Part shown: positions 48,004 to 51,195 of the stretch, one piece after another
Layout: every line of letters starts with the position of its first letter
Numbering within the stretch: position 1 is the stretch's first letter
Assembly (NCBI GenBank): GCA_030066685.1
Contig: JASJBF010000014.1
Span: 1 to 64,000, forward strand
Length of the DNA: 64,000 nt
Source: Kiloniellales bacterium
GTDB taxonomy: Bacteria > Pseudomonadota > Alphaproteobacteria > Kiloniellales > JAKSBE01
Direction of reading: 5' to 3'
Translations under genes and position numbers: made by a program
The notes under the pieces: generated by a model
What the model saw: the letters and a program-made list of their open reading frames with translations, nothing else
What the model was told of the DNA's origin: nothing
The model's database searches: none

Positions 48004-49347
48004 ATGCCCGCCGACCAGAACGACCTCGACCTGCTGACCGATCTGCTCGCCCGCGCCAAGGCCGCGGGCGCCGACGCGGCCGACGCCGTGATGGTCCATG
48101 CGACCTCGCTGTCCCACGCCCGCCGCCTGGGCGAGCTGGAGCGCCTGGAGCGGGCCGAGAGCAGCGACCTGGGCCTGCGGGTGCTGGTCGGGCGCCAGCA
48201 GGCGGTGGTCTCCTCGACCGACGTCACGCCGCCCGCCCTGGCGCAGCTGGTCGAGCAGGCCGTGGCCATGGCCCGCAGCGTGCCGGAGGATCCCTATTGC
48301 GGCCTGGCCGATCCGGAGGACATCGCCCGCGAGGTCCCCGAGCTCGAGACCTGCGATCCGGAGGAGCCGGCCACCGAGATCCTGATCGAGCGCGCCAAGG
48401 CCTGCGAGGATGCCGCCCGCGCGGTGCCCGGCGTGACCAATTCCGAGGGCGCGGAGGCCGGCTGGTCGATGAGCCGGGTCACCCTGGCGGCGAGCAACGG
48501 CTTCGCCGGCGGCTACGCCGGCTCCTCCCACTCGATCGGGGTCGCCGTCCTGGCCGGCGAGGGCCAGGGCATGGAGCGCGACTACGACTACTCCTCGGTG
48601 GTTTACGGCGCCGACCTCGAGGACCCGGCCGAGGTCGGGCGGCGCGCCGGCGAACGCACGGTCCGCCGCCTGGGCCCGCGCAAGCCGGACACCGGCAAGT
48701 ATCCCGTGGTCTTCGACCCGCGGGTCGGCAACGGCCTGCTGCGGCACCTCTCCGGGGCGATCAACGGCACCGCGATCGCCCGCGGCACCTCCTTCCTGAA
48801 GGACGCCATGGAGACCCCGGTCTTCGCCGCGGGCATCACCATCGTCGACGACCCGCACCGCCCGCGCGGCCTGCGCTCCAAGCCCTTCGACGGCGAGGGC
48901 CTGGCCAACCGGCGGCGCGAGATCGTCGAAGCCGGGGTGCTGAAGACCTGGATCCTCGACCTGCGCTCGGCCCGGCAGCTCGGACTGACCTCGACCGGCC
49001 ACGCCGCGCGCGGTACCTCCGCGCCGCCCTCCCCGGCGGCGACCAACCTCTACATGAAGGCCGGGCCTGAGAGCCCGGAGGCGCTGATCGGCGAGATCGA
49101 CCAGGGCCTTTACGTCACCGAGATGATGGGCATGGGCATCAACATGGTGACCGGCGACTACAGCCGGGGCGCCGCTGGCAACTGGATCGAGAAGGGCGAG
49201 CTGACCCATCCGGTCAGCGAGCTGACCGTGGCCGGCAACCTGAAGGACATGTTCGCCAAACTCACCCCGGCCAGCGACCTGGTGTTCCGCTACGGCGTCA
49301 ACGCTCCAACCCTGCGCATCGACGGCATGACCCTGGCCGGAGCCTGA
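48004..49347 (+). CDS. pmbA: PmbA/TldE subunit of the TldD-TldE protease
   Basis: 447 residues, non-catalytic partner of TldD; it has the same fold (SSHSIGVAVLAGEGQGMERDYDYS in part near residue 175, then NGLLRHLSGAINGTAI) but no HExxxH site, as expected for TldE. Together with TldD at 31607 the genome encodes the full heterodimer. The ATG at 48004 follows GCCGGAG. Confidence 0.95.
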   Translation: MPADQNDLDLLTDLLARAKAAGADAADAVMVHATSLSHARRLGELERLERAESSDLGLRVLVGRQQAVVSSTDVTPPALAQLVEQAVAMARSVPEDPYCGLADPEDIAREVPELETCDPEEPATEILIERAKACEDAARAVPGVTNSEGAEAGWSMSRVTLAASNGFAGGYAGSSHSIGVAVLAGEGQGMERDYDYSSVVYGADLEDPAEVGRRAGERTVRRLGPRKPDTGKYPVVFDPRVGNGLLRHLSGAINGTAIARGTSFLKDAMETPVFAAGITIVDDPHRPRGLRSKPFDGEGLANRRREIVEAGVLKTWILDLRSARQLGLTSTGHAARGTSAPPSPAATNLYMKAGPESPEALIGEIDQGLYVTEMMGMGINMVTGDYSRGAAGNWIEKGELTHPVSELTVAGNLKDMFAKLTPASDLVFRYGVNAPTLRIDGMTLAGA

Positions 49348-49373: not shown

Positions 49374-49475
49374 CCCCTCACCCGGCCGCTGCGCGGCCAC
49401 CCTCTCCCGGCGGGAGAGGGATGCGAAGGCTTGGCGAGGCCAAGGGCCGAGCCCTAGCCGGAGCTGGGTGAGGGG
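49374..49475 (+). repeat. 100-bp palindromic repeat, copy 1 (left of DUF559)
   Basis: 102 bp with inverted ends CCCCTCACCC/GGGTGAGGGG. Inside are GGCCGC/GCGGCC, CCCTCTCCC/GGGAGAGGG (49400-49420) and CTTGG/CCAAG (49430-49444). Nearly identical, in the same orientation, to 49850-49950. The stop codon and last seven codons of the DUF559 gene lie inside this copy. Confidence 0.9.
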
Positions 49476-49813
49476 TCGTCCGCTCCGGCAGCTTCCAGGA
49501 TCACCGTCAGCACGCCTTCGGGGTTCTCCGCGACCTCGTTGTTCCAGAACCGGATGACCCGGTAGCCCTCAGCCTCCAGCCACCGGGTCCGGCGCGCATC
49601 CTGTGCTCTGCCGTCAGGAGCGCCATGCTGACCTCCATCCACCTCGACGACCAAAGACGCGCTCAAACAGAAGAAGTCGACGACGTAGGGCCCCAGGGGC
49701 ACCTGCCGGCGGAACTTGAGCCCCGCAGCCTGCCGATTGCGCAGGGCAGACCAGAGCTTCGCTTCGGCCCTGGTCTGGTTGCGGCGCAGCTCTCTGGCAC
49801 GTGAGGTCGACAT
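49454..49813 (-). CDS. DUF559 endonuclease-like protein
   Basis: 119-residue single-domain nuclease related to very-short-patch repair and restriction endonucleases. The catalytic pattern is visible: the helix RRNQTRAEAKLWSALR near residue 10, then KFRRQVPLGPYVVDFF with the metal Asp (near 46), and VVEVDGGQHG with Glu/Asp/His (near 57). Typical for the family in length and order. Its C-terminal DPSPSSG is encoded by the left repeat, and the gene is bracketed by two direct repeats. No ribosome site precedes the ATG. Family role in vivo is not established. Confidence 0.9.
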   Translation of the reverse strand: MSTSRARELRRNQTRAEAKLWSALRNRQAAGLKFRRQVPLGPYVVDFFCLSASLVVEVDGGQHGAPDGRAQDARRTRWLEAEGYRVIRFWNNEVAENPEGVLTVILEAAGADDPSPSSG

Positions 49814-49849
49814 CGATCAGAGTTCACCATGGCGAGGTCCGGGGCGCCA

Positions 49850-49950
49850 CCCCTCACCCGGCCGCTGCGCGGCCACCCTCTCCTCGGGGAGAGGGATGCG
49901 AAGGCTTGGCGAGGCCAGGGGTCGAGCCTTAGCCGGAGCTGGGTGAGGGG
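49850..49950 (+). repeat. 100-bp palindromic repeat, copy 2 (right of DUF559)
   Basis: 101-bp direct copy of 49374-49475 with the same terminal inverted CCCCTCACCC/GGGTGAGGGG. A few substitutions occur in the hairpin loop (CTCGGGG in place of CCGGCGGG) and near GTCGAGCCTT. It starts 36 bases before the DUF559 start (reading leftward) and ends nine bases before the DUF2336 stop. Confidence 0.9.
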
Positions 49951-49959
49951 AGCCCGCGC

Positions 49960-51195
49960 TCAGCCGGCCATGCTCTCGAAGAGCTCGAGCTGCCAGGTCA
50001 TCTCGTCTTCGCTCAGGGGATAGCCGCCGCCGCGCGGGCGCAGCAGGTCGCCCGGCGCGATGCCGCCCAGGCGGGCCTGGAGCTGGACCGCGAACTCGGC
50101 CGAAAGCCCGGCCTTCCAGGCCAGGGAGACCACGCCCTTGGCGCTGCGGGCGTCCAGGACCTTGGAGATCCCGGCCTCGGGCAGGCCGGACTTCTCGGCC
50201 AGGGCCGCCTTGACTAAGCCGCGGTCGCCGCCGCCCAGGGCCTTGGCGATCGCCGCCTCGGTCAGCTCGCCTTTGGCCTCCAGGGCCTTGACCCGCTCCG
50301 CCGGCGGCACCTCGCCCTCGGCCGCCGCCTCGCGGGCCTCAAGGCGCTTCTTGACCTCCTTGGCCAGGGACTTGGCGGTCTTGGCGTCCAGGTCACGGCG
50401 CGCCTCCAGCTCCTCCAGCAGGCGGTCGGCGACGAAGCCGGCCAGCTTGCGCACCGCGGCCATGGAGAGCTTGGGCCGGGCGACCAGGGGTTCCTGCCAG
50501 GCCACGACCTTGCGCGCCCGCTCGACCAGCAGGTCCAGGGTCTCCTCGCGAATCTGCGCGCTGTCGTTGGCCAGCAGGGCGGCGGTCGCCGGCTCGCTGT
50601 CGACCGCGACCACGGCGTCGGCGACCGGCGCGCCCAGGCCGCGGCGCCGCGAGATCGCTTCGAGCTGGCCCTCGGCGCAGCCGGCCTGGATGATCTCGAT
50701 GAGGTCTTCGTCGGAGAGCAGCGGAGAGAACTCCAGGACCGGCGCCGCGACCGCAGCCGCGGCGTCGCGCGCCAGGCGCTGCACCACCTCGCCCGGGACC
50801 TCGGCCAGGTCCTTGACCGCTTCGGCCAGGACCCGGCGGACCCGGACCGCCTCGTCCCGGGCCAGGGTCACCAGGACCTTCTCGACGTAGGCCTCGGCGC
50901 GCTTGTGCTCGGCCGGGCCAAGGTCGGGCAGGACCCGCGCGACCTTGGCCGCCAGGCCGGCGCGCACCGCCTCGTCGCGGTCCTCGGAAAGCAGGATGTC
51001 GGCTTGGTAGGGCGTCGAGGCGTTGGCCGCCACCTCGGCCCGCACCGCGGCCTCGGCGTCCTCGGCCAGGTAGTAGAGCATCTCGGGCCGCAGGTCGGCG
51101 CGCCCGGCGAGCTCGGCCCGGACCCGCGGGTCGGCGCTCTGGAGGTAGACCTTGGCCTCCTCGTAGGGCAGACCGCCGACGCCGCCGTCGCTCAC
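49960..51195 (-). CDS. DUF2336 protein
   Basis: 411-residue alpha-helical, Ala/Leu/Glu-rich repeat protein of the DUF2336 family, seen in alphaproteobacteria. The first 150 residues show HEAT-like helix pairs (e.g. DPRVRAELAGRADL and DEAVRAGLAAKVARVL). Function unknown, likely a scaffold. The start is GTG at 51195, overlapping the stop of the upstream GGDEF gene by four bases (GTGA), so it is translationally coupled to a c-di-GMP enzyme. Confidence 0.88.
   Translation of the reverse strand: MSDGGVGGLPYEEAKVYLQSADPRVRAELAGRADLRPEMLYYLAEDAEAAVRAEVAANASTPYQADILLSEDRDEAVRAGLAAKVARVLPDLGPAEHKRAEAYVEKVLVTLARDEAVRVRRVLAEAVKDLAEVPGEVVQRLARDAAAAVAAPVLEFSPLLSDEDLIEIIQAGCAEGQLEAISRRRGLGAPVADAVVAVDSEPATAALLANDSAQIREETLDLLVERARKVVAWQEPLVARPKLSMAAVRKLAGFVADRLLEELEARRDLDAKTAKSLAKEVKKRLEAREAAAEGEVPPAERVKALEAKGELTEAAIAKALGGGDRGLVKAALAEKSGLPEAGISKVLDARSAKGVVSLAWKAGLSAEFAVQLQARLGGIAPGDLLRPRGGGYPLSEDEMTWQLELFESMAG

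Follow-up and report, generated by a model that had tools for sequence, protein, structure and literature searches.

DUF559 nuclease genes bracketed by Box C/TM-type repeats: a candidate REPIN-RAYT-like nuclease/repeat system

DUF559 nuclease genes and a class of dispersed palindromic repeats are tightly linked, both in position and in their occurrence among genomes. In the 64-kb window (the whole stretch of DNA that was analyzed), one such gene lies between two repeat copies, and on balance we favor the reading that this locus is a unit of a REPIN-RAYT-like nuclease/repeat system, in which DUF559, a PD-(D/E)XK nuclease of the Vsr/EDxHD type, would replace the HUH transposase. Box C/triplex repeats, known for more than 30 years and present in genomes numbering in the hundreds, mark variable regions of E. 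coli but had not been connected with any gene; the DUF559 family is widespread and its function unclear, one structure has been solved, and E. coli K-12-type laboratory strains carry a member. The link gives each of them a hypothesis, and both are testable at once.

The window locus and its repeats

The features of the locus, with their positions in the window, are as follows.

48004..49347, plus strand: PmbA/TldD-family metallopeptidase gene, the left neighbor, outside the element
49374..49475, plus strand: left repeat copy, 102 bp (fold test; further copies in the genome)
49374-49383: predicted third-strand tag CCCCTCACCC of the left copy
49384-49398: side hairpin of the left copy
49400-49420: central hairpin of the left copy, CCCTCTCCC-GGC-GGGAGAGGG
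49466-49475: right-hand tag GGGTGAGGGG of the left copy
49454..49813, minus strand: DUF559 (PF04480) nuclease gene, 119 aa (Pfam profile)
49850..49950, plus strand: right repeat copy, 101 bp, oriented as the left copy and 94% identical to it
49960..51195, minus strand: DUF2336 gene, the right neighbor, outside the element

The two copies form a direct pair of 94% identity with the ends CCCCTCACCC and GGGTGAGGGG, which bears out the first-pass annotation in its description of near-identical, same-orientation copies of ~100 bp with inverted ends; against a median of 82%, this pair is among the most similar of those compared. When folded as single-stranded DNA, both copies gave a z score of -4.4, and 0 of 200 dinucleotide shuffles were as low. 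In place of the three hairpins counted in that annotation, a more apt description gives each copy a central CCCTCTCCC/GGGAGAGGG hairpin accompanied by a side hairpin, with a third-strand tag at either end; GTAG/CGTC tags were absent from the repeat ends. Within the 64-kb window, the repeat was found nowhere beyond the flanking pair. The genome (G000) holds at least ~40 full or partial copies, a floor given that 40 of 122 candidates were scored, and 133 of its sites fit the generic hairpin pattern given below.

DUF559 is the sole substantial gene between the copies (49454-49813, minus strand), and the PF04480 profile matched it with E = 9e-42 and 141.8 bits, compared with a curated cutoff of 20.6, which upholds the earlier identification of the single bracketed gene. 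Its final seven codons and stop (DPSPSSG, then the stop) fall within the left copy or at its edge, and this overlap of the 49454 end with 49374-49475 agrees with the earlier view that the tail derived from that copy. The AlphaFold model of the protein (pLDDT 81.6) had as its nearest folds NGO0050 (3hrl), then the catalytic domain of I-Bth0305I (3r3p), with Vsr (1vsr) weaker, and the top two of a profile search were also NGO0050 and I-Bth0305I. E17, D46, E57, D59, H63, and R75 were invariant or nearly so among 143 DUF559 domains. The window DUF559 is thus predicted to fold in the PD-(D/E)XK/Vsr-like manner, and its acidic and His residues are conserved. The only functional work found on DUF559 proteins is the study of Caulobacter VsrA, a protein that causes DNA damage signaling upon loss of ScmA methylation and for which a host role in mismatch repair is plausible (PMC12907096). 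The DUF559 literature searched held no association with repeats, although absence from open-access papers is not proof that none was reported.

To characterize the repeats, covariation expected of a triplex was scored in 561 hairpin readings on both strands at 122 loci. At these loci the tag downstream of the purine arm was the mirror of the arm rather than its complement: in the window, arm GGGAGAGGG goes with tag GGGTGAGGG, and other pairs were GGGGGAGGG with GGGTGGGGG, GGGGGAAGG with GGATGGGGG, GGGGGAGGA with AGGTGGGGG, and GGGAGAAGG with GGATGAGGG. A full 9/9 match to purine-motif triads was seen in 41% of readings versus 5.8% when arms were re-paired with tags from other loci; as the count covered both strands and the tag is usually one-sided, singly tagged hairpins could reach about half at most. 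Judged by sequence, the window repeats are members of the published Box C/intrastrand-triplex (TM) motifs and not a new family (PMC4666352): the window copy has valid purine-motif triads and is dispersed in many copies, and the triplex itself is predicted. Holder et al. described this kind of intrastrand triplex as the TM motif and counted 23 copies in E. coli; triplex formation by TMECO was demonstrated in vitro, and TM sites were reported to be genetically unstable in E. coli (PMC4666352). Box C goes back to Bergler 1992, as cited in PMC4666352, and the 2015 TM survey sought a mobility gene near TM repeats and found none (PMC4666352).

Bracketing and genome-level association

To score bracketing, the 250-bp flanks of a gene were compared in both orientations and their best local match was taken, with thresholds (30 and 50) of the analyst's choice. 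This covered 100 loci, drawn from 80 DUF559 relatives in a species collection and from relatives within the order. At a score of at least 30, 83 of the 100 DUF559 loci were bracketed, compared with 2.3% of 258 control ORFs from the same loci, and at a score of at least 50 the values were 66% and 0.4% (n = 258). Going by record titles, the loci span alpha-, beta-, gamma-, and deltaproteobacteria, Chloroflexi, and Nitrospirae; this first set is skewed to close relatives of the query, and a phylum-wide draw, which is less so, had 27 of 43 DUF559 loci bracketed. Some DUF559 loci in both sets were not bracketed, and some cases are concealed by contig breaks at repeats, the genomes being one per species and many of them drafts.

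Both full-length DUF559 genes in G000 are bracketed by unlike repeat families, the second by inverted repeats of the CCCTCCCCC type. Over 98 bracketed loci the pair was direct at 45 and inverted at 53, so that the shared orientation described in the first-pass annotation holds for the window pair but not as a general trait; orientation is unconstrained, unlike that of classical transposon ends. The annotation had further suggested looking for DUF559 genes that terminate in the repeat, and the stop codon lay inside it at 34 of the 98 bracketed loci; because the stop falls within the repeat, Pro/Ser/Gly-rich C-terminal tails recur in DUF559. The E. coli DUF559 gene ycjD, in the sapF-fabI interval, likewise terminates (SPSPQPSP, then the stop) within a Box C/TM repeat, and in N. 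gonorrhoeae a DUF559 gene whose product is identical to 3hrl over 102 residues has ~120-bp direct repeats on both sides. Phage matches were few (3 records).

Several further observations concern individual places. On pSymB of S. meliloti Ak57 (L161), a DUF559 unit sits in near-identical ~115-bp inverted repeats and adjoins an ISRm16 copy; the other flank of this region was not found among other plasmid records. At G000:C23:6614-6778 (L033) and like places in many genomes, ORFs of ~1100-2200 aa have a partial DUF559-like match (profile 57-108), and these very large ORFs probably encode multidomain proteins to which a nuclease is fused and which have no relation to the repeats. In the sapF-fabI interval of E. 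coli (L157, L163/L164), ycjD and the efflux operon eefRABCD are alternative contents beside Box C/TM repeats, an alternation that may exemplify rearrangement associated with repeats. E. coli was rejected as an empty-site test, since this alternation makes it unclean.

We then asked about association at the level of whole genomes, using the generic hairpin pattern CCCTCYCCC N2-8 GGGRGAGGG with a threshold of at least 5 occurrences in 159 genomes of the phylum. The pattern reached the threshold in 26 of 46 genomes with DUF559 versus 8 of 113 without a strong DUF559 match (odds ratio [OR] 17, p = 6e-11), in a test that corrects incompletely for phylogeny and with a pattern that misses families with other stems. 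The association also stood when DUF559 was permuted within families (p = 0.001), and a reversed-pattern control was nearly always zero. A scatter of repeats with no link to DUF559, which the first-pass annotation had set against its own proposal, was not what was found. The same test on Y1_Tnp (the RAYT/IS200 family) in the same genomes gave OR 1.05 and p = 1, and a RAYT was accordingly rejected as the mover.

Gain and loss of the unit

In one alphaproteobacterial genus, DUF559 sits between glyQ and glyS, and the unit, the solo repeat, and the empty site alternate there, the kind of alleles that had been suggested as a check in relatives. Among 49 species resolved, 15 had repeat-DUF559-repeat, 27 lacked a repeat, and 7 had a solo repeat (6 the right repeat only and 1 the left only), the seven being pooled as one class for the tree. 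On the glyQ tree the full state changed at least 11 times, with 8 changes forced by well-supported branches, and full/empty sister pairs were seen; the most divergent species of the genus are empty. Most empty alleles held a short conserved sequence of ~35 bp, which full alleles replace, and no target duplication was seen between full and empty alleles. Since conserved sequence is replaced in the full alleles, the empty allele is hard to derive from them by simple deletion.

A stop or frameshift was present in 3 of the 15 full-allele DUF559 genes, and the remainder had a dN/dS of ~0.06, showing purifying selection on DUF559 at this site. The trees of DUF559 and host agree for the most part, so that the unit as a whole is not seen to move actively at glyQ-glyS. 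This congruence favors an old insertion, after which the two alleles persisted and were exchanged by recombination, over repeated fresh jumps; DUF559 here behaves as an old, mainly vertical resident with frequent loss or exchange and not as a busy transposon. Genomes with the full allele had a median of 5 solo copies matching the left repeat versus 1 in those with the empty allele (p = 8e-4, phylogeny uncorrected). In seven species of the genus (G219, G220, G231, G232, G235, G264, and G271) the GlyQ match ended at residue ~249 of 314, which suggests a variant C terminus or a different gene layout.

At the window site, congener G002 has an orthologous element, whereas in G001 synteny is lost after pmbA, where a different neighbor gene follows, with an apparent right end of the window repeat kept (L144), a possible remnant of a lost unit. 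No empty allele of this site was found in the two congeners. Plasmid collections (S. meliloti pSymB and Azospirillum) yielded no empty alleles either. Elsewhere, comparison of the window genome with congeners revealed solo repeats that were gained, lost, or swapped for another family at the same site. One intergenic site (L009, L302, and L309, in G000 and two congeners) carries TM-type families that differ among three species, as though by re-use of sites or replacement of repeats.

Proposed explanation, alternatives, and known systems

In the nuclease/repeat system that we favor, the flanking repeats would be Box C/TM elements, in which the purine arm of a hairpin is capped by a downstream mirror third strand to give an intrastrand triplex. 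DUF559 would recognize the repeat (folded or duplex) or the target of the repeat and cut DNA there, and the cut would be repaired by copying in either the repeat alone or the entire repeat-gene-repeat unit. The copying route would be homing-like, with a short target replaced and not duplicated, and solo repeats would be nonautonomous offspring. DUF559 itself may thus move the repeats, which makes it the candidate spreading enzyme. We put forward more tentatively, as a possibility, that DUF559 is a small Vsr-type nuclease that reads the intrastrand triplex, co-evolves with Box C/TM, and copies in a homing-like way, in parallel to REPIN-RAYT; if this recognition of a DNA triplex proves true, DUF559 would be one of the rare natural enzymes specific for triplexes.

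The DUF559-repeat pairing survived the tests set to break it (bracketing, genome association, and alleles). Weighing against the system are the congruent trees, the free orientation, the plausible host role of VsrA, repeat-rich genomes without a strong DUF559 match, and DUF559 loci that are not bracketed. The first-pass annotation had proposed DUF559 as a REPtron-like mobilizing enzyme, and its view that the gene belongs with the repeats stands, given bracketing across phyla, a genome association specific to DUF559, stops in the repeat at 34 of 98 loci, and empty, solo, and full alleles, while cleavage or movement by DUF559 is what we infer.

It is conceivable, though in our estimate unlikely, that DUF559 is a passenger, i.e., a nuclease of other function (e.g., Vsr-like T:G repair beside an orphan cytosine methyltransferase) spread via homologous recombination between resident repeats that are moved otherwise. 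The DNA damage signaling caused by VsrA upon loss of ScmA methylation (PMC12907096) and the vertical inheritance at glyQ-glyS are consistent with such a role, and same-family repeats would permit cassette exchange. Repeat abundance, however, would not be expected to track a passenger, whether across genomes or inside families, and DUF559 is bracketed by many repeat families in different genomes whereas neighboring genes almost never are; nor does any other substantial gene lie between the repeats, and Y1_Tnp is unassociated.

An EDxHD/Vsr-like homing endonuclease that targets the empty intergenic site, with repeats as repair by-products or insulating transcription terminators, is improbable. 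I-Bth0305I is indeed the second-best solved relative, and the tree-scattered alternation of full and empty alleles, with target replacement and three broken alleles, resembles a cycle of gain, degeneration, and loss, yet tens to hundreds of solo repeats and their association with DUF559 are left unexplained. We give very little credence to the repeats being host-useful structures (terminators, gyrase sites, or replication-fork sites) with DUF559 as a nuclease that maintains them by resolving hairpins or triplexes, neither repeats nor gene being meaningfully mobile: purifying selection on DUF559 fits, and TM instability in E. coli (PMC4666352) could call for a resolving nuclease, but the position of the gene between two copies, the polymorphism between solo and empty alleles, and the replacement of one family by another at given sites in congeners are not accounted for. 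Chance co-occurrence in repeat-rich intergenic DNA, which GC-rich genomes could produce given the GC-rich scattered repeats, was discarded as next to negligible on the strength of the control ORFs from the same few kilobases (n = 258, 2.3% bracketed) and of the within-family permutation, which left the association standing.

Returning to the favored nuclease/repeat system, its repeats resemble Box C/TM (TMECO; enterobacteria and others) in the hairpin with a purine-rich 3' arm and mirror third-strand tag, in comparable core letters (CCCTCTCCC/GGGAGAGGG/GGGGTGAGGG), and in being intergenic, dispersed, and strain variable. They differ in that no mobility gene was linked to Box C/TM before, whereas here they bracket DUF559 genes, and in that many stem variants co-vary with their tags, the window copy being a ~100-bp double-ended form. 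The enzyme is of the same family as the DUF559/YcjD-like proteins (NGO0050, 3hrl; VsrA, PMC12907096; YcjD, PMC1189080), whose papers examined mention no association with repeats. A composite transposon or IS origin was rejected: DNA transposons and ISs have terminal inverted repeats and a target-site duplication, whereas here the repeats occur in either orientation, no other substantial gene lies inside, and at glyQ-glyS the target is replaced, with no duplication seen. With the homing endonuclease I-Bth0305I (PDB 3r3p) the unit shares a second-best fold and a weak profile match and, with homing elements, the optional occupancy of one site with its target replaced (glyQ-glyS); unlike it, no intron or intein was seen here, and dispersed repeats bracket the gene.

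REP/REPIN-RAYT REPtrons (PMC2817692, PMC3116915, and PMC3733652) likewise have palindromic repeats flanking an enzyme gene, many solo copies per genome, and repeat families that differ between genomes, and by position DUF559 is an enzyme gene flanked by its own repeats. The REPtron enzyme is a Y1 HUH transposase and its tags are GTAG/CGTC, in contrast to the PD-(D/E)XK nuclease and the mirror third strands such as GGGTGAGGGG here, where Y1_Tnp presence is unrelated to the repeats. Because enzyme and tags differ, the DUF559 system lies outside the REPIN-RAYT family; the likeness is in the way of working, with a resident enzyme gene, scattered solo repeats, and mostly vertical inheritance.
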